From positions 1 through 43,542 of the IMG/VR virus record IMGVR_UViG_3300028654_000029: 43,542 nt of DNA; one strand, written 5' to 3'. The translations under genes and the position numbers were made by a program. Shown here one piece after another: positions 7,928 to 35,527 of the stretch (position 1 is its first letter; the number at the start of each line of letters is the position of its first letter). The notes below the pieces were generated by a model. That model was not told the DNA's origin. It did no database searches and saw only the letters and a program-made list of their open reading frames with translations. The DNA comes from a virus.

Positions 7928-8332
7928 TTACCGCCAGGGCCAGTACGAAGCAGGACGTTTTGTCTTAAGTTCGACAGTGGCTGAGATTCCGGTCGCAGTG
8001 GTCTTGACATACGTCCCAATCGTTCCCTGGTAGGCAAGGTCTTTGTTCCGTTCCCCAACGAGAATGGTCCAGTAGTAACCGTTCGAGTTCTGCGTGTTCC
8101 CATCGCTGCACACCAAGATCTTATACGTGGCGGAACGCTCGAGGATGTCGGCTTCGCTGAACTTAAGCGTTGATCCTGCAAGTAGGGTCCAGGTCGAGAT
8201 GACTGCAGTGGCGGTCTTCGTTACACCTTCGAGTTTTCCTTGGTCGGCGAACGCGGCATGTGGCAAGGACAGGGAAATAAGCATGATGGGCATGAAAGAC
8301 ATGGCGACGATACTTGCGAAGATCTTCTTCAT
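7928..8332 (-). CDS. Small exported protein of unknown function
   Basis: A 134-residue protein with a clear signal peptide: basic start (MKKIFA), a hydrophobic stretch to about residue 26, and AFA before the mature part. The mature domain of about 105 residues is beta-rich and ends in YWPWR. I do not recognise a family. It is the first gene of a two-gene unit with the other exported protein, 33 bases apart. GGAGG lies nine bases before the ATG, and a consensus-like extended -10 promoter lies about 47 bases upstream. Confidence 0.7.
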   Translation of the reverse strand: MKKIFASIVAMSFMPIMLISLSLPHAAFADQGKLEGVTKTATAVISTWTLLAGSTLKFSEADILERSATYKILVCSDGNTQNSNGYYWTILVGERNKDLAYQGTIGTYVKTTATGISATVELKTKRPASYWPWR

Positions 8333-8378
8333 TGATTTTTTCCTCCAGGCGTTTTCAATGTACTGCTTTATGTCCTGG

Positions 8379-8387
8379 ATTATATCA
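8379..8387 (-). promoter_or_regulatory. Extended -10 promoter for exported-protein genes
   Basis: On the minus strand this reads TGATATAAT, a perfect TGn-TATAAT extended -10 element. No good -35 box lies 17 bases upstream (ATTCCC). It falls in the 81-base gap between terL and the two exported-protein genes, about 45 bases before the first ATG. It would let these two genes be transcribed independently of the late operon. Confidence 0.55.
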
Positions 8388-8413
8388 GCGGGTGATCAAA
8401 TGGGAATTATAAT

Positions 8414-9832
8414 TTATTTTTTACCAAGTTTTCGGATGTAATTAGGTTTCTCAACTAGGCAGTTGTACACCAGCGAAAATCCGTCCACAAAGTCGTCGTT
8501 TTTACCGTTTGGGAACGTGATTAACTCGGAAATGAAGTCAGCGTTCCAGTTCCCCCGGACTATGAACACGTTGCCCGCCTCGCATTGCGCGGACGCCGGT
8601 CCGGCCCTTTCGACTTTGCTACCTGAACTTTTAACACCTTTGAACGAATACCCAGAAAGAACATTCCGTTGATAATGACTAGTCGTTGTCTTCCCTGAGC
8701 TTCCAGGTTCCTCCTCCTGGTATATCTTGACCTTACGTCCGTCCTGTTTGGCGATGTCTGCCGTTAGAATCTCATTTTCGAAAGGACTCTTCCTGAACCT
8801 TATGGCATGCAGGATGTAAACTCGTCCTTCCTTGGTCCTGCCGATCTTCACGCCGGCGGAATAGTCTGGATTTTTTCCGGGAGCGGCCTCTGTCGCAGCT
8901 CTGTCCCAACCCCTTGCCATGACCAAATTTTCCGGTACCTCCTCTGGATCTACATACTTGTCCTTGAACCATGCGGCTTTAAATAAGTCTCCCTCTCCCT
9001 CCTTCGGGTTTTGAAGATACTGCGCGGTCCATACCCTCGGGTTTTTAAAACTTACGGACAATTTTATCTGCTCGAGTTCTTCATCCGACCAACGTTCCGG
9101 AAAGTTCGAGTGACCATTCTCGTCTACGGCCGGGATAGTGAGCACGACCCACTTCTCGCCACCTTCCTCCATCTCCTGAATGAGTTGACCCGATAGGTCC
9201 TGAGTATGAAGTCTTTGCTGCACGATGACGATAGCTGCATTCGGTTCGAGACGACTACGGAACGTACCCTTGAACCACGACACGCACTTGTTGTGGATAG
9301 ACACATTGTCCATGTCGTTCGCATTCGTCGGGTCTTCGATGATTCCGAGGTGACAACCTTTTCCGGTTATTGAACCCCGAGCTCCAGCTGCATAGTAGTG
9401 TCCGCCATTCGTGGAGTGAAAACGTTTGGCTGACTTAGAGTCCTGGCGCAGGCGAACCTCGAAGAGTTGCGCATGTTCCTCCGAGTTGAAGATGTTTCTG
9501 ATCTCGCGTCCGAAGTCTACCGCGATGTCCGCGGAGTATGAGGCGTGAATTATTTTTCGTCTAGGGTTTCGGGACAGGTACCATGCTGGAAAAAACTGAG
9601 ATACCCACCAGGACTTTCCGAACCTGGGGGGCATGTTTATGATGAGCCGTTTTATCTCTCCGCGTTCCACCTTTTCGAGTAGATCTATCATCTCGAGATG
9701 AATGTCCGGGAATAGACAGTATGGGTTCAAGTAAAGACCGTACTCCGCGAGGCTGGACCTGGCGTTGTTGCGCCGTTCCATCTCGTGGAGCAGGTAGGAT
9801 TCCTCTGACAGAAGTTCTGTTCTATTTGCCAT
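8414..9832 (-). CDS. terL: Terminase large subunit
   Basis: A packaging motor protein of about 472 residues, with an N-terminal ATPase and a C-terminal nuclease. Walker A is PPRFGKS (about 68-74), Walker B is LGIIEDP (about 163-168), and a coupling motif region includes QRLHTQDLSG. The RNase H-like nuclease shows RGWDRAA (Asp near 310), a YQEEEPGSSG region and NDDFVDGFSLV (acidic residues near 446-450). This is the Terminase_6/6C type used by many headful packagers. The ATG at 9832 has AGGAAAG upstream and overlaps the terS end by 11 bases. Confidence 0.93.
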   Translation of the reverse strand: MANRTELLSEESYLLHEMERRNNARSSLAEYGLYLNPYCLFPDIHLEMIDLLEKVERGEIKRLIINMPPRFGKSWWVSQFFPAWYLSRNPRRKIIHASYSADIAVDFGREIRNIFNSEEHAQLFEVRLRQDSKSAKRFHSTNGGHYYAAGARGSITGKGCHLGIIEDPTNANDMDNVSIHNKCVSWFKGTFRSRLEPNAAIVIVQQRLHTQDLSGQLIQEMEEGGEKWVVLTIPAVDENGHSNFPERWSDEELEQIKLSVSFKNPRVWTAQYLQNPKEGEGDLFKAAWFKDKYVDPEEVPENLVMARGWDRAATEAAPGKNPDYSAGVKIGRTKEGRVYILHAIRFRKSPFENEILTADIAKQDGRKVKIYQEEEPGSSGKTTTSHYQRNVLSGYSFKGVKSSGSKVERAGPASAQCEAGNVFIVRGNWNADFISELITFPNGKNDDFVDGFSLVYNCLVEKPNYIRKLGKK

Positions 9833-10373
9833 CACTTTCCTGCAGGTGTTTCTTTTCCTTCGCGATTTCCATGAGTCTGTGCTGTATCATCTCGTTTGAC
9901 CAGTCCTGAAGATTGTTTGCGCCCACGTTCGCTACGTTCACCTGCACATTGACGTCCGGCGCCTGGGAATGAGCAGAGGAATTTCCATCTCCGTCCTGCT
10001 CCCTGAGTTCCCTGAGGGCCTTGAGTTGCATGTCAACAGCCAGTCGGACACCGGCGATCGCGTCTGATTCCTTGGAAATTTTCTTCTTGCCCGCGAATGC
10101 ATTCAGACTCAATCCCAATATGACCTGGGCTACCTTCAACTGTTTCTCCACGATCTCAATGTGCCGGCTTGCCCTGAGTTGGGCGGTCTTCTCAGCCACG
10201 ATCTCCTCGACCTTGTCATCTACCGCTTTTTTCTTGTCCGTCCATTTTTCCCTGGCGACGCGCTTAAAAAACGTCGATTTGGGGATCTTCATTTTTTTGC
10301 ACATCTGACTCATGGTCACGTACTTCCCGGACAGCCAGATCTGCTTTAACTTTTTCCAGTCATGCGTAGACAT
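9822..10373 (-). CDS. terS: Terminase small subunit
   Basis: A 183-residue DNA-binding partner of the terminase. The N-terminus has a helix-turn-helix (about 18-45: YVTMSQMCKKMKIPKSTFFK). A basic segment and a long helical oligomerisation region (about 50-130) follow, and then a charged tail with a C-terminal RLMEIAKEKKHLQE helix likely to contact the large subunit. Gene order and overlap with terL make the call secure. Confidence 0.85.
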   Translation of the reverse strand: MSTHDWKKLKQIWLSGKYVTMSQMCKKMKIPKSTFFKRVAREKWTDKKKAVDDKVEEIVAEKTAQLRASRHIEIVEKQLKVAQVILGLSLNAFAGKKKISKESDAIAGVRLAVDMQLKALRELREQDGDGNSSAHSQAPDVNVQVNVANVGANNLQDWSNEMIQHRLMEIAKEKKHLQESDGK

Positions 10374-14535: not shown

Positions 14536-14774
14536 TAGATTTTCCCCTTTTCAGTTATTTTAAATCCGTGAACCTCGCCGACCGGTTGGTTCACGTTCAA
14601 AGCCCACTCTTTAACCTTCCAAAGATTAATCGACAAACAATCGACTGGAAGTTCCCCATTGGCAACCGCTTTGATCGCCATCATCCGGTTATCCATGCCA
14701 TCAATGAGGCATACGTTAATTTCGCGGTTTGGTTCCCGCGGTTCCATCGCCGCGAACTTTCTCGCCGCCTTCAC
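14535..14774 (-). CDS. Unknown 79-residue protein
   Basis: The start is GTG at 14774 with AGGGGAA seven bases upstream, overlapping the helicase-loader end by four bases; the stop overlaps the next start. It has no Cys ribbon, signal or membrane segment. A central NRMMAIKAVANGELPVDCLSI segment suggests a small mixed alpha/beta fold. Function is unknown; tight coupling suggests it works with the loader. Confidence 0.55.
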   Translation of the reverse strand: MKAARKFAAMEPREPNREINVCLIDGMDNRMMAIKAVANGELPVDCLSINLWKVKEWALNVNQPVGEVHGFKITEKGKI

Positions 14775-15478
14775 GACTTTCCCCTAAAGGTTTCTCCTGA
14801 AAACACAACCACCATTCCGTCGTTCGTCGCCCGGTCCCATGCGCGGTCACCAATCAACGATTTAAAATCCTTTGGTCCGAGGTTGCTGATGAGTATCGTG
14901 TTTTTATAGTCGTCGTGCCGGCCAATGAGTAACCGTTCCATAAATTCATTCGCGGCTGCGGTCTTAAGCTGCAGGCCTATCTCGTCGATGGCTATTGTGG
15001 CCGGTCTGAGAGCCTCGTTCATGACCTCCATCGTGTCACGTGAAACCCTTTCAGTCAACAGGTCAAAAGAGTAAAAATAGCGTATGCTTCCCCTCGCAGA
15101 AAGCATGCGCAATGCCTGGCATGCGAGGCCAGACTTTCCACGGCCACGGGAACCTACCAGGAGCATCAGTCCCGGACGGTCCCTGGCGACATACCGGTTT
15201 ACCGTTGATACCACGCCACTGTCCTTGTCCGGATACGTTTCAAGCTTAAGATCCAAAAGCCTGGATGGAATTTTCGCTCCCTCAATGCGCATTTCCATCT
15301 GCTTATCAAAAATCTTTTTTGAGTTTGAATTTAAAATGAAACAGTCGCAGTCAGCGACGAGCGCATTCTCGAGCATCGGCAAGTTTGCCTTTTTAAACGG
15401 TCTGCCGCATACGTCGCAAAATCGCTCTTGAATCAATGATCCACTGATTTTTTGAAGTCCTGTCCGATAAATTCCCAT
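14771..15478 (-). CDS. DnaC-like helicase loader ATPase
   Basis: A 235-residue AAA+ protein of the DnaC/IstB type. Residues 21-46 hold four cysteines (CDVCG, CDC) that could form a small metal site. The ATPase core follows: Walker A GSRGRGKS (109-116), Walker B TIAIDEIG (161-168, Asp165 Glu166), sensor 1 ILISNL (195-200), and an arginine-finger region IGDRAWDR (209-216). Loaders of this type place the host replicative helicase on phage origin DNA with the initiator encoded just upstream. No phage helicase is evident in this window, so the host DnaB is the likely partner. Confidence 0.85.
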   Translation of the reverse strand: MGIYRTGLQKISGSLIQERFCDVCGRPFKKANLPMLENALVADCDCFILNSNSKKIFDKQMEMRIEGAKIPSRLLDLKLETYPDKDSGVVSTVNRYVARDRPGLMLLVGSRGRGKSGLACQALRMLSARGSIRYFYSFDLLTERVSRDTMEVMNEALRPATIAIDEIGLQLKTAAANEFMERLLIGRHDDYKNTILISNLGPKDFKSLIGDRAWDRATNDGMVVVFSGETFRGKS

Positions 15479-15505: not shown

Positions 15506-16366
15506 TTATTTATGACCCGATGCTATCTTATCCCACTCGTCAATGTCACTTTCGGATGCCTGTTGGGAAGGTTGAACCTGCGTGAATCCTTTTTTCGATG
15601 GTATCCCGTCCTTAAACCATTCGAGCATGCCTTTTACCCCAACCGGAGAAAATCCGCGCATGAGCCACGCCTTGATGACGATCTCCCAGGTGTCAAGGTC
15701 GGCATCTGTCAAAACGTTCTCATCGATGGCATCCATCTGAACCTTGTTCGGCCATGTTCCAGTAATTTCCTGGTACCTGACAACTGCGAGCGATCTTAAT
15801 TTGTACTTTTTATCTGATTTTGGCTTTTCAGGTTTTTCATGGTCATCAGGAATTAAAATATCATCAGTGGGGGATTTGCAAAGCTCTTTATTCTTTACTT
15901 TACTATCCTTTACTTTACTTTGTGTCAGAATGTTGACATCAATCGGATTGATGTTGCATGAATCGCATTTATGTATACAAGAATCGCATTTATGTATACA
16001 TGTTGGCTTTTTTGGCTTATCCGTACGACGGTCATAAAGTCGACTTAAATTGTCCACCAGGTCCTGGCACCAGATGATTTTTGAGCATTTCCACAATTCT
16101 GCGTCAATATTGCCCCTCTCGGCCAATTTATGCAGTATCAATTCGCCTTTTGTATGCATAATTCCTATTCTTGCATACATCAATTCCATTTCTGTATACA
16201 AATTGACGTCTATAAAGTGTCCCTTTGCCAGGCATAGAAGCTCAAGCAACTGATACCACATGGCATAGCCTTCGAGCCCGAACATCGACTTGAGTATGAA
16301 AACCGTGTTTCCTTGAGCGGCATAGTGCGGGAAATATTCAGCGGTGAGTTTTGGGTTATTTCCCAT
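15506..16366 (-). CDS. DUF4373-like replication initiator
   Basis: A protein of about 286 residues. The N-terminal domain (about 1-110), with YFPHYAAQG and LKSMFGLEGYAMWYQLLELL, matches the DUF4373 winged-helix domain of phage and plasmid replication initiators. A linker follows with a heptad repeat (CIHKCDS twice, near 122-136), then a C-terminal domain (about 190-270) with WEIVIKAWLMRGFSPVGVKGMLEWFKDGI, like DnaD-type ends that recruit a loader. The next gene is the DnaC-like loader. The gene carries 21-bp iterons (separate entry), as lambda O does. The ATG at 16366 is used; a GTG at 16387 is also possible. Confidence 0.75.
   Translation of the reverse strand: MGNNPKLTAEYFPHYAAQGNTVFILKSMFGLEGYAMWYQLLELLCLAKGHFIDVNLYTEMELMYARIGIMHTKGELILHKLAERGNIDAELWKCSKIIWCQDLVDNLSRLYDRRTDKPKKPTCIHKCDSCIHKCDSCNINPIDVNILTQSKVKDSKVKNKELCKSPTDDILIPDDHEKPEKPKSDKKYKLRSLAVVRYQEITGTWPNKVQMDAIDENVLTDADLDTWEIVIKAWLMRGFSPVGVKGMLEWFKDGIPSKKGFTQVQPSQQASESDIDEWDKIASGHK
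15891..16201. repeat. Iterons inside initiator gene: candidate replication origin
   Basis: Five related units end in a GTATAC-like core. The cores are at 15973, 15994, 16152, 16173 and 16194, so neighbours within each cluster are exactly 21 bases apart. The first two units are identical over 20 bases (15960-15979 and 15981-16000); the other three share the pattern aat-tc-catt-tgtataca with changes. Next to the first cluster is a T-rich, C-poor stretch of ctttactttact repeats (15891-15922) that could melt easily. Phased repeats, an AT-rich element and a position inside the initiator gene resemble the lambda ori within O. Confidence 0.65.
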
Positions 16367-16604
16367 CCTTGGCCGCCTTGCTGACACGGGAAGGCCTGTC
16401 GCTTATGTGCCTGAGCATGGCGTCCGGGGAGTCAGACGGGAAGTACAGCGTCCATCTTCCGTGGACCATCTCCTTCCTCGCGCGCTGCAGGATGCCGCTA
16501 TCGCGGGCATACATCCTAAAGCTTCCGACCGGGCACTCGATCCCAAGCGCGTTAAGCATTCCAATCAGTTCAATTCTCGTAACCTCGCCCTTCAGCTTAG
16601 CCAT
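16356..16604 (-). CDS. MerR-like small DNA-binding protein
   Basis: An 82-residue protein with VTRIELIGMLNALG followed by VGSFRMYARDSGIL, reminiscent of the MerR-type helix-turn-helix with its arginine and tyrosine before the wing, then a basic helical tail. ATG 16604 has GAGGGGG about seven bases upstream, and promoter elements lie directly before it. As the first gene of the initiator-loader operon it may regulate that operon. It overlaps the initiator start. Confidence 0.6.
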   Translation of the reverse strand: MAKLKGEVTRIELIGMLNALGIECPVGSFRMYARDSGILQRARKEMVHGRWTLYFPSDSPDAMLRHISDRPSRVSKAAKDGK

Positions 16605-16676: not shown

Positions 16677-17702
16677 TCACATCTTTAATAACTGTTTTCT
16701 AATCTCGAGTGCGAGTCGCTGCATCATGAACGGCGGAACGCTCATACCGAGTACGTACTTCGCCCGCGTACCGCGGAAGTCAAAGTCGTCGGGAAAAGTC
16801 TGTAGGCGCACGATTTCCGCGTCAGACAGTTCCGCCGGGTCGGACCAGTGGGCCGTAGTCGAGGCGACCGTAGACGTGATCGTGTTCGCCGGCATGTCCG
16901 GGTGCATGCGGTACGAGTTGAAGAACGAACCTTTAGGGTGCGCGAACGAGAACGCCTTTCCAGGCGGAGTTTTCATGTACCACGTTTTGAACGCGCGGGA
17001 CAGCGGTTTCCGGATCCCTCCGGCGCCCTCGATAGCCTGCCTGACCGTGATTATCCTCTCGCCAAAAGACAATAGCAACATAGGGAGTTTGAGGTCCTCG
17101 CGCGTGGCCACAAAGAATACGCGTTCCCTGCGCTGCGGCACGCCCATGTGCTGAGAATTGAGTAGGAACAGTTGCGTTTTGTACCCGGACGCGCGGAACT
17201 GCTCTAATATCCGCTTCACGTACCCACGAGCGTTGCCGAGCAACAGACCCTTAACGTTCTCCGCCACGACGATGCGCGGACGCAGACGATTTGCCAGGTC
17301 GATGAAGTGGAAGAATAGGTCGTCGAGTACCTGGTCGACCTGTCCCTCCCTGAACTTTTTGCTCTTTCCCCATGCCTTCTCCCTGTCTCCACTCATGGAG
17401 AAAGAAGAACACGGAGGGGACCCGTCCAGAACGTCCAGATTGAAAAGTTCCGGTGGCAAGTCCTTTCTGTTCTTGAATGTCTGGATGGCCTCTTGAAACG
17501 AGATTCGCGGGTTGTGGTTAACACGGTATATGTCGATCATCTGCGGGTCTATCTCGTCGCACCCAAGTACGTCGAACCCAGCAAGTTTCCACCCCATGGT
17601 TGACCCTCCGCCGCATGCGAAGCATGAGAACACCGTCGGGGATCCCGGTTCCGGTTTCTTTAGGTCGGATAGTTTCCATGGTATGTGCGCCCTGTCCGGC
17701 AC
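16677..17702 (-). CDS. DNA (cytosine-5) methyltransferase
   Basis: A 341-residue enzyme that transfers a methyl group from SAM to cytosine C5 in DNA. Motif I is FSCFACGGGS (25-34), the catalytic loop is GSPPCSSFS with Cys98, motif VI is ENVKG (148-152) and motif VIII is QRRERVFF (190-197). A target-recognition region follows, then RLQTFPDDF and a C-terminal helix. I chose GTG 17702, two bases after the ParB-like gene stop; an upstream GTG at 17795 would add a Ser-rich stretch overlapping that gene by 92 bases. No cognate restriction nuclease is obvious, so protection of phage DNA is the likely role. Confidence 0.88.
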   Translation of the reverse strand: MPDRAHIPWKLSDLKKPEPGSPTVFSCFACGGGSTMGWKLAGFDVLGCDEIDPQMIDIYRVNHNPRISFQEAIQTFKNRKDLPPELFNLDVLDGSPPCSSFSMSGDREKAWGKSKKFREGQVDQVLDDLFFHFIDLANRLRPRIVVAENVKGLLLGNARGYVKRILEQFRASGYKTQLFLLNSQHMGVPQRRERVFFVATREDLKLPMLLLSFGERIITVRQAIEGAGGIRKPLSRAFKTWYMKTPPGKAFSFAHPKGSFFNSYRMHPDMPANTITSTVASTTAHWSDPAELSDAEIVRLQTFPDDFDFRGTRAKYVLGMSVPPFMMQRLALEIRKQLLKM

Positions 17703-17703
17703 C

Positions 17704-18339
17704 CTAATCCCCGAACTCGAAACCGCACTTTGGGCACTTATGCTCGAGGGAGAGGTCGTCCTCTCTAATTTCCTTCGCTCCCTGGCCATCGGCACTAACC
17801 TCCTTCAGCATTTTTTCAATCTCCTTGTCTGAAAACCCAGTCAATGACATTTCGAAACCACGTCCCAGTAGGTCTCTCATCTCGGACTTGAGCAAGTCAT
17901 ACTCCCAACCGGTTTCCGCGAGTTTGTTGTCCGCTATACGTGCGGCCGCGACTTCGTCTGGTTTCATGTCCGTACGTACAATCACCGGAACAAATGGCAT
18001 TCCGAGTTTTTTTGCCGCCAGTAACCTACCATGTCCTTTGATGACGATCATCTTCCCGTCAGTAACGATTGGTTGGTCAAATCCATGCCTAGCTATTTGC
18101 TCGGCGAGGGAGTCAACCTGGTAGTCATCATGCGTCTTTGGGTTTCGGCCATACGGTTTTAAGGAGTCCGTTGGAAGGTACTTAGCGACCGCGACCCTGC
18201 GTTCAGAAGTCTTATCGCCAACAGACTTTTCAGCTTTATCTCGTCCTTTGTCTGTAATTCCCATATTGTTAAAATCCTCCATATCGTTTTTTTCAGTGCG
18301 CATATTACGCTCTGTTCGGTTATGAACGGTCATCCTCAT
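17704..18339 (-). CDS. ParB/Srx-like protein paired with methyltransferase
   Basis: A protein of up to 211 residues. Residues about 50-125 form a ParB N-terminal-like domain (LKPYGRNPKTH, SLAEQIARHGFDQPIV, VIKGHGRLLAAKKLG). A segment usual in methylase-associated ParB proteins follows (AARIADNKLAETGWEYDLL). It ends with a single CPKCGFEFGD half-ribbon. Such proteins often sit beside or are fused to DNA methyltransferases. The start is uncertain: the first ATG (18339) overlaps the previous gene by 20 bases, while ATG 18264 has GGAGG eleven bases upstream. Confidence 0.75.
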   Translation of the reverse strand: MRMTVHNRTERNMRTEKNDMEDFNNMGITDKGRDKAEKSVGDKTSERRVAVAKYLPTDSLKPYGRNPKTHDDYQVDSLAEQIARHGFDQPIVTDGKMIVIKGHGRLLAAKKLGMPFVPVIVRTDMKPDEVAAARIADNKLAETGWEYDLLKSEMRDLLGRGFEMSLTGFSDKEIEKMLKEVSADGQGAKEIREDDLSLEHKCPKCGFEFGD

Positions 18340-24473: not shown

Positions 24474-25901
24474 CTATGTTTTTCCCGGAAGCCAACCCTT
24501 CATGCGGCAGGCCCGGATGTTGAACTCCTTCCAGGTGAACTCCTCACGGAATGTCAGGTGGACCGTCCCCTTCTTGTAGTACCGTATTGGGAAGAAGTGC
24601 GTACTCTCGCACACGCCCGATGCGTCTCCCTCAAAACTTTTATTAAGGGCATCGGAGACCGTAACGACATTTGATAATTTTTTACCGGAGACGGCATTCA
24701 TGGCGATGTCTATGTCCCGGATCTCATTGTCATAATTGTAGTTTATATGGAATGCCTTACCCCCAAACCATGGACTGATGATGTGTGGTAGTACCACTTT
24801 TCGCGATGCCATCCACGACTTATCGGAGACCCAACCCTCCGGATGGATGCGGTTGTCCGAGTGGTACCGTGTGAAGTAGTCGAACACCTCCTCGATGCAC
24901 GCCTGTTGGATCTCATTCCCATTGGACATGATCATGAGAAACAAGGATTGTATGTTTTCCTTCGTGAACTCGAGTGATTGGTGCGTCTTCTGAAACTTGT
25001 CAAAGTCGTCTCGTACCTTGCGAGTCATGAGGTTTTCTATCTTTACCATACTGAACACATTCTTCCAGCATTCCATCCGGAATTCCTCAATGAATGCATT
25101 ATGCGAGGAACCATAGTCTCCCTTGAATGCGTTCATCAGGTACTCTGGAAACTTGGAATATGACGGAAGAATATGGTCCGCGTGGTAGGACATCCGGCTG
25201 CGAAGTTTGTAATAATCAGCGAATAATTCCTTGACCTTCTCGTACTCCAAAACGACGTTTCCAACCACGTCCCGGACCGCTACCTCATTCGGGATCTCTT
25301 CCTCATTGATCCGGTACTCCTTCTCACTCGTATTGGACGCGTCCTTGAAAAAATCGAAGTCCTCCCCCACGGACTTTTTCGTCAACGTGACCATGACGAC
25401 GTCAACCTGCGTCTTCCGCTCCGCGTCCGAGAAGCACTTCCCGAGTTCAGTTATCTTCCCATGTTCCAGGATGATAGTACCGAGCAACGCTCGCTCCCGG
25501 CTCGCCATTAGGTTGCGAGTCGTCTCCGCGTTAAGCAGACAGACGATCACGCCATCTTTCATGATCTCCCAGGCGCGCAGCAAGTGCTTGGTTCCTGAAG
25601 AGAAAGGCGGGTTCATAACGATTCCGTCGAACCTATAACTCGGGACGTACGTCATAAAGTCGTGCGCCACCAGGTTGAATTTTTTCCCAATTAGTGTCGC
25701 CTGTAGGTCCGGGTCAGATTCAATGACAAAGAGATTCGCGCGGTTTCCGTAGTTCTTTACGAAATCGGCAAGGTCTCCCTTTCCGGCGGATGGTTCGAGT
25801 ATATACGGTTCATCCACGTTCTTAATCGCCTCGAACATCTCGTTGACCATGCGGATGCCTATGCGTTCGGGAGTTGGGTAAAAATCAGGATTGTTCAACA
25901 T
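24474..25901 (-). CDS. DUF4942 N6-adenine DNA methyltransferase
   Basis: A 475-residue enzyme. The SAM site is LEPSAGKGDLADF (35-47), the catalytic motif is NPPF (97-100), and a target region follows with conserved DUF4942 parts: YYKLRSRMSYHADHILPSY in the middle and FFPIRYYKKGTVHLTFRE near the end. FYPTPERI at the N-terminus is common in this family. It probably methylates adenine in phage DNA to resist host restriction. AAGGAG precedes the ATG. It is the only large enzyme of the early region. Confidence 0.85.
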   Translation of the reverse strand: MLNNPDFYPTPERIGIRMVNEMFEAIKNVDEPYILEPSAGKGDLADFVKNYGNRANLFVIESDPDLQATLIGKKFNLVAHDFMTYVPSYRFDGIVMNPPFSSGTKHLLRAWEIMKDGVIVCLLNAETTRNLMASRERALLGTIILEHGKITELGKCFSDAERKTQVDVVMVTLTKKSVGEDFDFFKDASNTSEKEYRINEEEIPNEVAVRDVVGNVVLEYEKVKELFADYYKLRSRMSYHADHILPSYSKFPEYLMNAFKGDYGSSHNAFIEEFRMECWKNVFSMVKIENLMTRKVRDDFDKFQKTHQSLEFTKENIQSLFLMIMSNGNEIQQACIEEVFDYFTRYHSDNRIHPEGWVSDKSWMASRKVVLPHIISPWFGGKAFHINYNYDNEIRDIDIAMNAVSGKKLSNVVTVSDALNKSFEGDASGVCESTHFFPIRYYKKGTVHLTFREEFTWKEFNIRACRMKGWLPGKT

Positions 25902-34867: not shown

Positions 34868-35527
34868 TCACTTCCCCTTGACCTTTGTCGTGCCCACGCA
34901 CGCGGTCGCATTTATGGTGCATAGACCGTTCGGGGCCGTTATGACGAGCGCGGAAAGGTCTGACTTAAGCGCCAGAGCAGAACCGGATTCATCCCCGAGA
35001 TTTATGTCCGAACTCGTTACGACGACCTTCGTGGCCGTGACATTCACCCGGCCGCCACTTGTGATCTCTATAAGTGAGTCCCCGTTCACGATCTCCAGGG
35101 ACGTCGAAGGACACTTCGGAACCATGGCCGCCGGCTTGGGGTATATTCCCGGATACGCGACGGCGTCATTGAGAGAGAACTTCGCGGGGTCCTCCGGGTC
35201 AATCGATCCGCCCCGCTCAATCCACAGGTCCAGGGAACGCTCCGAGAAAACCAGCAACACATAGTCTCCGGCCGCTACCGGAATCTTCACCCAAGAGTCT
35301 CCGGCTCGGTAGAAAAGCACCGGCACTCCGGATATTACCGGAAGTTCCACGGCACTGTCCTCGTCAACATACTTCCGCCGGAGCATTGGGACGACCTTCG
35401 CCAATCCGGTAGAAGGGTCGAATGACTCGATCCTTCCGGGAAGGCACGTGTGCACGTCCACAAGTTCCTTCGCGATGGCGTTCGATATCAGTTGTGATAT
35501 TGTGGTCCTAGATCTGTACTCCGGCAT
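34868..35527 (-). CDS. Baseplate spike, Gp138-like
   Basis: A 219-residue spike tip. The N-terminal OB-like part (VDVHTCLPGRIESFDPSTGLAKVVPMLRRKY... SGVPVLF) matches the Gp138 N-terminal domain. The later region (about 140-200) has short beta repeats (LIEITSGGRVNVTATKVVVTSSDINLG) as in trimeric needle shafts. The C-terminus has cysteines (CTINATACVGTTKV) typical of some tips. It pierces the outer cell surface during contraction. Confidence 0.83.
   Translation of the reverse strand: MPEYRSRTTISQLISNAIAKELVDVHTCLPGRIESFDPSTGLAKVVPMLRRKYVDEDSAVELPVISGVPVLFYRAGDSWVKIPVAAGDYVLLVFSERSLDLWIERGGSIDPEDPAKFSLNDAVAYPGIYPKPAAMVPKCPSTSLEIVNGDSLIEITSGGRVNVTATKVVVTSSDINLGDESGSALALKSDLSALVITAPNGLCTINATACVGTTKVKGK

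Follow-up and report, generated by a model that had tools for sequence, protein, structure and literature searches.

RESULTS

The initiator gene and its neighbors

The locus lies in a 43,542-nt stretch of viral DNA that was analyzed whole and is called the window here. A minus-strand open reading frame (15506 to 16387, with a possible start at the ATG at 16366) encodes a predicted replication initiator of 293 amino acids. The next gene downstream (14771 to 15478, minus strand) encodes a DnaC-like helicase loader (phrog_50, E = 9.4e-25; IstB, E = 9.8e-8), a neighbor expected of an intragenic iteron origin. The initial annotation had called the initiator DUF4373-like, and profile searches bear this out: the protein matches Lin1244_N (PF14297/DUF4373) with an E value of 1.2e-5 and 26.4 bits, above the curated cutoff of 25, and phrog_2562 (replication initiation) with an E value of 1e-17. 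The Pfam match spans residues 18 to 109 (16061 to 16336, minus strand), a putative DNA-binding domain that is helical in an AlphaFold2 model. This model, built on 63 sequences with a mean pLDDT of 73.6 (about 95 in the domain and about 42 to 56 in the linker), shows a folded region at residues 1 to 125, a disordered linker at about 130 to 189, and a helical C-terminal domain at 190 to 260. A PDB fold search with the model returned nothing significant (best E = 1.5, weak helix-turn-helix-regulator-like matches), so that DNA binding by the Lin1244_N domain remains a prediction. Genes near the replication genes also include those for a C5 cytosine methylase (16677 to 17795), a ParB_N-like protein (17704 to 18339), and a DUF4942/methyltransferase protein (24474 to 25901).

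Iteron arrays inside the initiator gene

Repeats resembling binding sites are present inside the initiator open reading frame in two clusters. All five cores reported initially were found in place, at 15973 (GTATAC) and 15994 (GTATAC) in the linker-coding cluster A and at 16152 (GTATGC), 16173 (GCATAC), and 16194 (GTATAC) in the domain-coding cluster B, with a spacing of exactly 21 bp within each cluster. Three of the five are exact, and two are one-mismatch variants. The longer core, TGTATACA, is a dyad, and the iterons are given without strand. This core occurs as A1 (15993 to 16000), A2 (15972 to 15979), and B1 (16193 to 16200), while B2 (16172 to 16179) reads TGCATACA and B3 (16151 to 16158) reads TGTATGCA. 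A1 and A2 lie 21 bp apart and share GAATCGCATTTATGTATACA at 20 of 20 bases, as had been noted; this unit has two matches against zero expected and none elsewhere within three mismatches. Repeat arrays were also called independently by TRF. The linker array is longer than first noted, since degenerate units beginning at 15952 (A3, TGTTGCAT, 15952 to 15959) and 15931 (A4, TGTTGACA, or TGTCAACA on the minus strand, 15931 to 15938) extend it toward the 3' end of the gene in steps of 21, 20, and 21 bp. A4 holds the position of the last dyad of relatives, and a gap of exactly 9 nt separates the end of the array from a pentamer tract at 15889 to 15921.

Clusters A and B are 158 bp apart, which is 15.05 turns at 10.5 bp per turn, and on such a helix all seven units fall within 0.1 turn of one face. 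As 158 bp does not make a whole number of codons, the core is read in different frames in the two clusters, as TGT-ATA-CAT (CIH) in A and as T-TG-TAT-ACA (LYT) in B. The linker array and the tract together (15889 to 16000) encode residues 130 to 166, within the predicted disordered linker, and cluster B (16151 to 16200) encodes parts of predicted helices 64 to 74 and 78 to 90 of the folded domain. When the initiator protein was recoded 20,000 times with the phage's codon usage, the three cluster B cores were kept in 23 trials and the two cluster A cores in 4,187, and three or more 21-bp pairs were present in 5. Cluster A alone is unremarkable in this test, given that its two heptads are supplied by the protein. 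The reported split of the iterons between domain and linker stands in that both clusters are real, but the domain cluster is the weaker part of the claim; no counterpart of it was seen in the domain-coding part of relatives, and cluster B was observed in this phage only. GC skew does not switch near 15.9 kb and thus neither supports nor opposes an origin here.

The pentamer tract

The tract at 15889 to 15921 (minus strand) reads AAAGTAAAGTAAAGGATAGTAAAGTAAAGAATA, an (AAGTA)n repeat that encodes SKVKDSKVKN, and it is the sole such tract in the window. It had been described as a T-rich, C-poor tract adjoining the iterons; a tract does adjoin them, but it is really a 5-bp-period CTTTA repeat on the plus strand, and its scarce base is G, not C. 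Its AT fraction is 0.79 versus 0.57 for the whole gene, which in composition only is what the AT-rich or unwinding element of an intragenic origin would have. The tract is conserved in relatives and is a putative unwinding or single-strand recognition element.

Relatives with the tract and iterons

Single-sequence searches with the initiator and with the terminase found no close relatives in IMG/VR, and a search of phages and plasmids produced a single distant match of use, which was without iterons. A profile search with the initiator yielded 80 loci, many of which carry a linker tract, AGTAAAGTAAAGGAAAGTAAAG, preceded on its 5' side by direct repeats that are private to each phage and spaced 21 or 32 bp. 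A spacing of 32 bp does not correspond to whole codons, and repeats at this distance therefore cannot be peptide repeats. All 35 protein-selected genes with an SKV motif, the window included, encode it as AGT-AAA-GTA (background, 0.25, 0.60, and 0.28), and this holds even in genes of 53 to 54% GC. The tract is present in no more than about half of the relatives selected by protein, and those without tract and iterons are mostly GC rich; loci L003, L010, L019, L053, L069, and similar ones are GC-rich relatives of this kind, with neither element inside the gene.

Scans with DNA patterns led to the same gene family. Pairs of TGTATACA at 21 bp were found at 50 IMG/VR loci, nine of which have a Lin1244_N-type initiator open reading frame as judged by an N-terminal profile; in all nine the pair sits within that frame and never elsewhere in the locus. 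At a spacing of 32 bp, which is three helical turns and shifts the frame, 3 of 25 loci had the pair in an initiator gene, compared to 0 of 53 at 24 bp, a spacing of whole codons that is out of helical phase. The core in relatives is mostly read in the third frame (aaT-GTA-TAC-A), giving NVYIN-like peptides. A blind scan for the tract pattern CACAAAGTAAAGTAAAGNNNAGTAAAG hit at least 120 viral stretches and 85 genomic ones, which left 142 listed sites once near-duplicates were removed. Among these listed matches, 137 of 142 lie in open reading frames, and 133 of those 137 frames are Lin1244_N-type initiators. PF14297 was present in 66 of 66 aligned initiator open reading frames (65 sampled from the tract scan, plus that of the window). 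The named hosts of tract sites are mainly Bacillota (Firmicutes) and Bacteroidota (Bacteroidetes). The module is also found in the named phages and prophages bIL286, phiFL1A, PG1, B054, and iLp84, and the records viewed for these five carry no origin annotation.

Geometry upstream of the tract was measured in 140 listed sequences. Direct-repeat autocorrelation peaked at 21 (z = 32), 42, 33, 54, and 32 bp, and dyad symmetry peaked at -13.5, -34.5, -55.5, and about -45; the z-scores come from shuffles, which ignore shared ancestry. The spacings of 21, 32/33, and 42 bp correspond to two, three, and four helical turns, and the center of the last dyad lies 13.5 nt away from the tract. In a smaller, protein-selected set, the dyad peaks stood at -14, -45, and -55.5, and their z-scores were lower. 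The gap between TGTnnACA and the tract is 9 nt at 14 sites and 30 nt at 13 sites; the remaining gap lengths between 0 and 39 nt account for two sites in total. The window has this geometry, reading TGTCAACA-TTCTGACAC-AAAGTA with the 9-nt gap and steps of 21, 20, and 21 bp. Many phages that have Lin1244_N initiators thus share a single module, made up of dyad iterons in helical phase, a junction fixed at 9 nt, and a tract of 5-bp period.

Stop avoidance in coding tracts

An (AAGTA)n repeat reads TAA once per 15 nt, whichever frame is used, and it is for this reason that the third pentamer is always altered in coding tracts, giving a 15-bp super-period of AAGTA AAGTA AAGGA. In the 137 coding tracts among the listed matches, the NNN of the scan pattern is GAA in 100, AAA in 16, TAT in 6, and GAG in 6, with a few others; it is never TAA, and its middle base is always A. 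The absence of an in-frame TAA is trivially required of a gene, and what is telling is that the pentamer is otherwise retained. Avoidance of stops predicts that untranslated tracts should be pure AAGTA. Outside genes the tract is indeed pure, whereas the coding tracts have each third unit interrupted at the point of the potential TAA stop.

Copies outside genes

A scan for (AAGTA)5 found 15 loci, most without a covering open reading frame. At least seven pure-tract loci (L135, L137, L143, L144, L145, L147, and L148) have clear repeats directly 5' of the tract when read by eye. At L135, GTATAC units precede the pure tract near a Lin1244_N initiator gene, and at L148 the gene order is Lin1244_N initiator, origin-like site, and DnaC-like loader. 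At roughly half of these 15 loci no iterons are obvious, and the pure tracts there may be simple repeats. A locus in a Lentilactobacillus genome (L339) has TGTATACA units 32 bp apart, a 9-nt gap, and a pure tract; this origin-like site, at about 2400 to 2520 of a Lentilactobacillus kosonis contig, has an S24 repressor and an integrase as neighbors and could belong to a phage satellite or a prophage with the same initiator specificity. Near 4075 of L139 (IMGVR_UViG_3300013119_000685), a DnaA-box-like TGTGGATAA precedes a pure AAGTA tract, an arrangement in which the tract may work with other initiators too. At L137 (IMGVR_UViG_3300010283_000021), the intergenic origin-like site adjoins a gene at 8312 to 10093 that appears to join a papain-fold glutamine deamidase domain to a phage minor-head-type protein.

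One phage contig of 58,721 bp (G003) has a single Lin1244_N initiator and carries GCCGAAAC nine times in its 58.7 kb. Eight of these copies form two clusters 11 kb apart, each just 5' of a tract. The cluster in the initiator gene (46,241 to 46,322; spacings of 32 and 42 bp) is followed by a tract with AAGGA, and the intergenic one (35,140 to 35,232; spacings of 32, 11, 11, and 31 bp) is followed by a pure tract.

DISCUSSION

The segment at 15889 to 16200 is very probably the replication origin of this phage, embedded in its own initiator gene, a reading that rests on sequence comparison. The initial annotation had proposed origin iterons within a DUF4373-type initiator gene, and the proposal gains support from the spacing and geometry kept in relatives, from a core that appears in three frames, and from the copies outside genes. 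We consider the pentamer tract probably a second essential part of the putative origin and the domain cluster (16151 to 16200) probably a set of auxiliary sites in phase with the linker array. Within the origin claim, we are least sure of cluster B. Whether it matters at all is a subquestion of the origin reading, with which its confidence overlaps: the origin could be real with only the linker array and the tract of importance, and cluster B could be chance combined with a real helix repeat. This is quite possible, if not what we expect; relatives do without a second cluster in the domain-coding part and the cluster encodes predicted helices, but so few recodings kept its three cores, and it is in helical phase with cluster A.

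The repeats could also be a by-product of protein repeats, with the heptads and the SKVKE linker selected as peptide. A period of 21 bp is seven codons, the translated tract is always in one frame, and the linker could contact the loader. We find this highly improbable. The single reading frame of the tract is forced, because the other frames hit a stop, and the linker is predicted to be disordered. The core is found in three frames, the 32-bp spacing breaks the frame, synonymous codons are fixed, and pure tracts and iterons also occur outside genes. Since the same core is read in one frame in the linker and in another in the domain, it is the DNA that is conserved and not the peptide heptads. 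This agrees with the suggestion in the initial annotation that the DNA repeat shaped the protein, and we regard the linker peptide as largely a by-product of origin DNA. A loss of DNA phase in relatives that keep the heptads would have spoken against the origin reading; the opposite was found, with spacing and geometry kept while sequence and codons change.

Initiators often autoregulate at their iterons. The sites might be operators at which the initiator or a repressor controls the initiator gene or downstream genes, and the TGTATACA dyad has an operator-like form. However, they lie in the middle of the gene, in relatives they stand 5' of the pentamer tract at a fixed distance, and operators would predict neither the tract nor a second, intergenic copy; we think such a role improbable as the explanation, only marginally less so than selection on the peptide. 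Least probable by our estimate, to the point of being nearly dismissed, is neutral slippage, that is, tandem duplication in an unconstrained linker next to an AT-rich microsatellite. Linkers do tolerate repeats and some pure tracts are microsatellite-like, but slippage is contradicted by the geometry of the module, with its fixed 9-nt junction, helical spacing, and dispersed, nonadjacent units, and by the concentration of coding tracts (133 of the 137 among the listed matches) in one gene family.

For the origin reading, we propose that the N-terminal domain of the initiator would bind TGTnnACA dyads as dimers on one helix face and that, by analogy with lambda and SPP1, the resulting complex would open the neighboring (AAGTA)n tract. 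The initiator, the loader, or else an activity like that of DnaD might then hold one of the two strands in a sequence-specific manner, and the DnaC-like loader encoded next door would place the helicase at the opened tract. The module offers a readable origin signature for many uncharacterized phages and prophages of Bacillota and Bacteroidota. Its variable recognition part, the iterons, is separable from a near-constant opening part, the tract, and this allows a direct test of how phage initiators open DNA. The module also shows with unusual clarity how a DNA element dictates protein sequence, as can be read from the third pentamer and the stop it avoids.

Intragenic phage origins are already known, as in lambda O and SPP1 gene 38. 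The limited open-license literature searched yielded nothing on the pentamer element or on the coded form in which it avoids stops, on the fixed junction, on the spread of these features over Lin1244_N initiators, or on the linker peptide, and the pentamer element and its fixed geometry appear to be undescribed there.

In Bacillus subtilis oriC, the DnaD recognition element has a TnnT motif (PMC10201434). The complement of our tract, (TTTAC)n, has TACT every 5 nt, which fits that motif (PMC10201434), and as with the DnaA boxes and the DnaA-trios/DnaD element of oriC, duplex boxes stand beside a short-period element, with single-strand binding here by analogy. Unlike oriC, the period is 5 instead of 3 and the initiator is another one. 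The tract is not a DnaA-trio/DnaD recognition element proper, which consists of 3'-GAT-5' trinucleotides beside DnaA boxes, given its 5-nt period and boxes of TGTnnACA rather than TTATCCACA. We see about even chances that (AAGTA)n is the phage counterpart of that element, a sequence-specific single-strand loading element common to phages with differing duplex iterons, the coding version of which would be edited only to dodge stops, so that the origin would write the linker peptide SKVKESKVKE.

The rep gene (orf13) of the lactococcal phage TP901-1 has a similar plan, with direct repeats in its linker and a repetitive, AT-rich tract after them. Those repeats were reportedly found essential for replication by Ostergaard et al. 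in 2001. TP901-1 differs in its initiator type, by annotation, in the 18-bp length of its repeats, and in its tract, AATACTAATATACAAAACACTG, which has no AAGTA pentamers. In lambda, inverted-repeat iterons adjoin an AT-rich tract in the middle of initiator gene O, and replication gene P is next (PMC7466680); the window resembles this plan, shared by lambdoid and Stx phages, in that its iterons are dyads beside an AT-rich tract inside the initiator gene with a replication gene adjoining. The initiator family differs from that of lambda, whose AT-rich tract is not described as a pentamer with a fixed junction (PMC7466680). In the module described here, the iterons change in sequence from phage to phage, and the tract stays nearly constant. 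The phage SPP1 has oriL in gene 38, with direct repeats and an AT-rich unwinding element, the helicase loader gp39, and oriR about 13 kb away (PMC6316719). The G003 phage, compared with the published description of SPP1, has a similar two-origin plan, with one intragenic copy and one intergenic copy.
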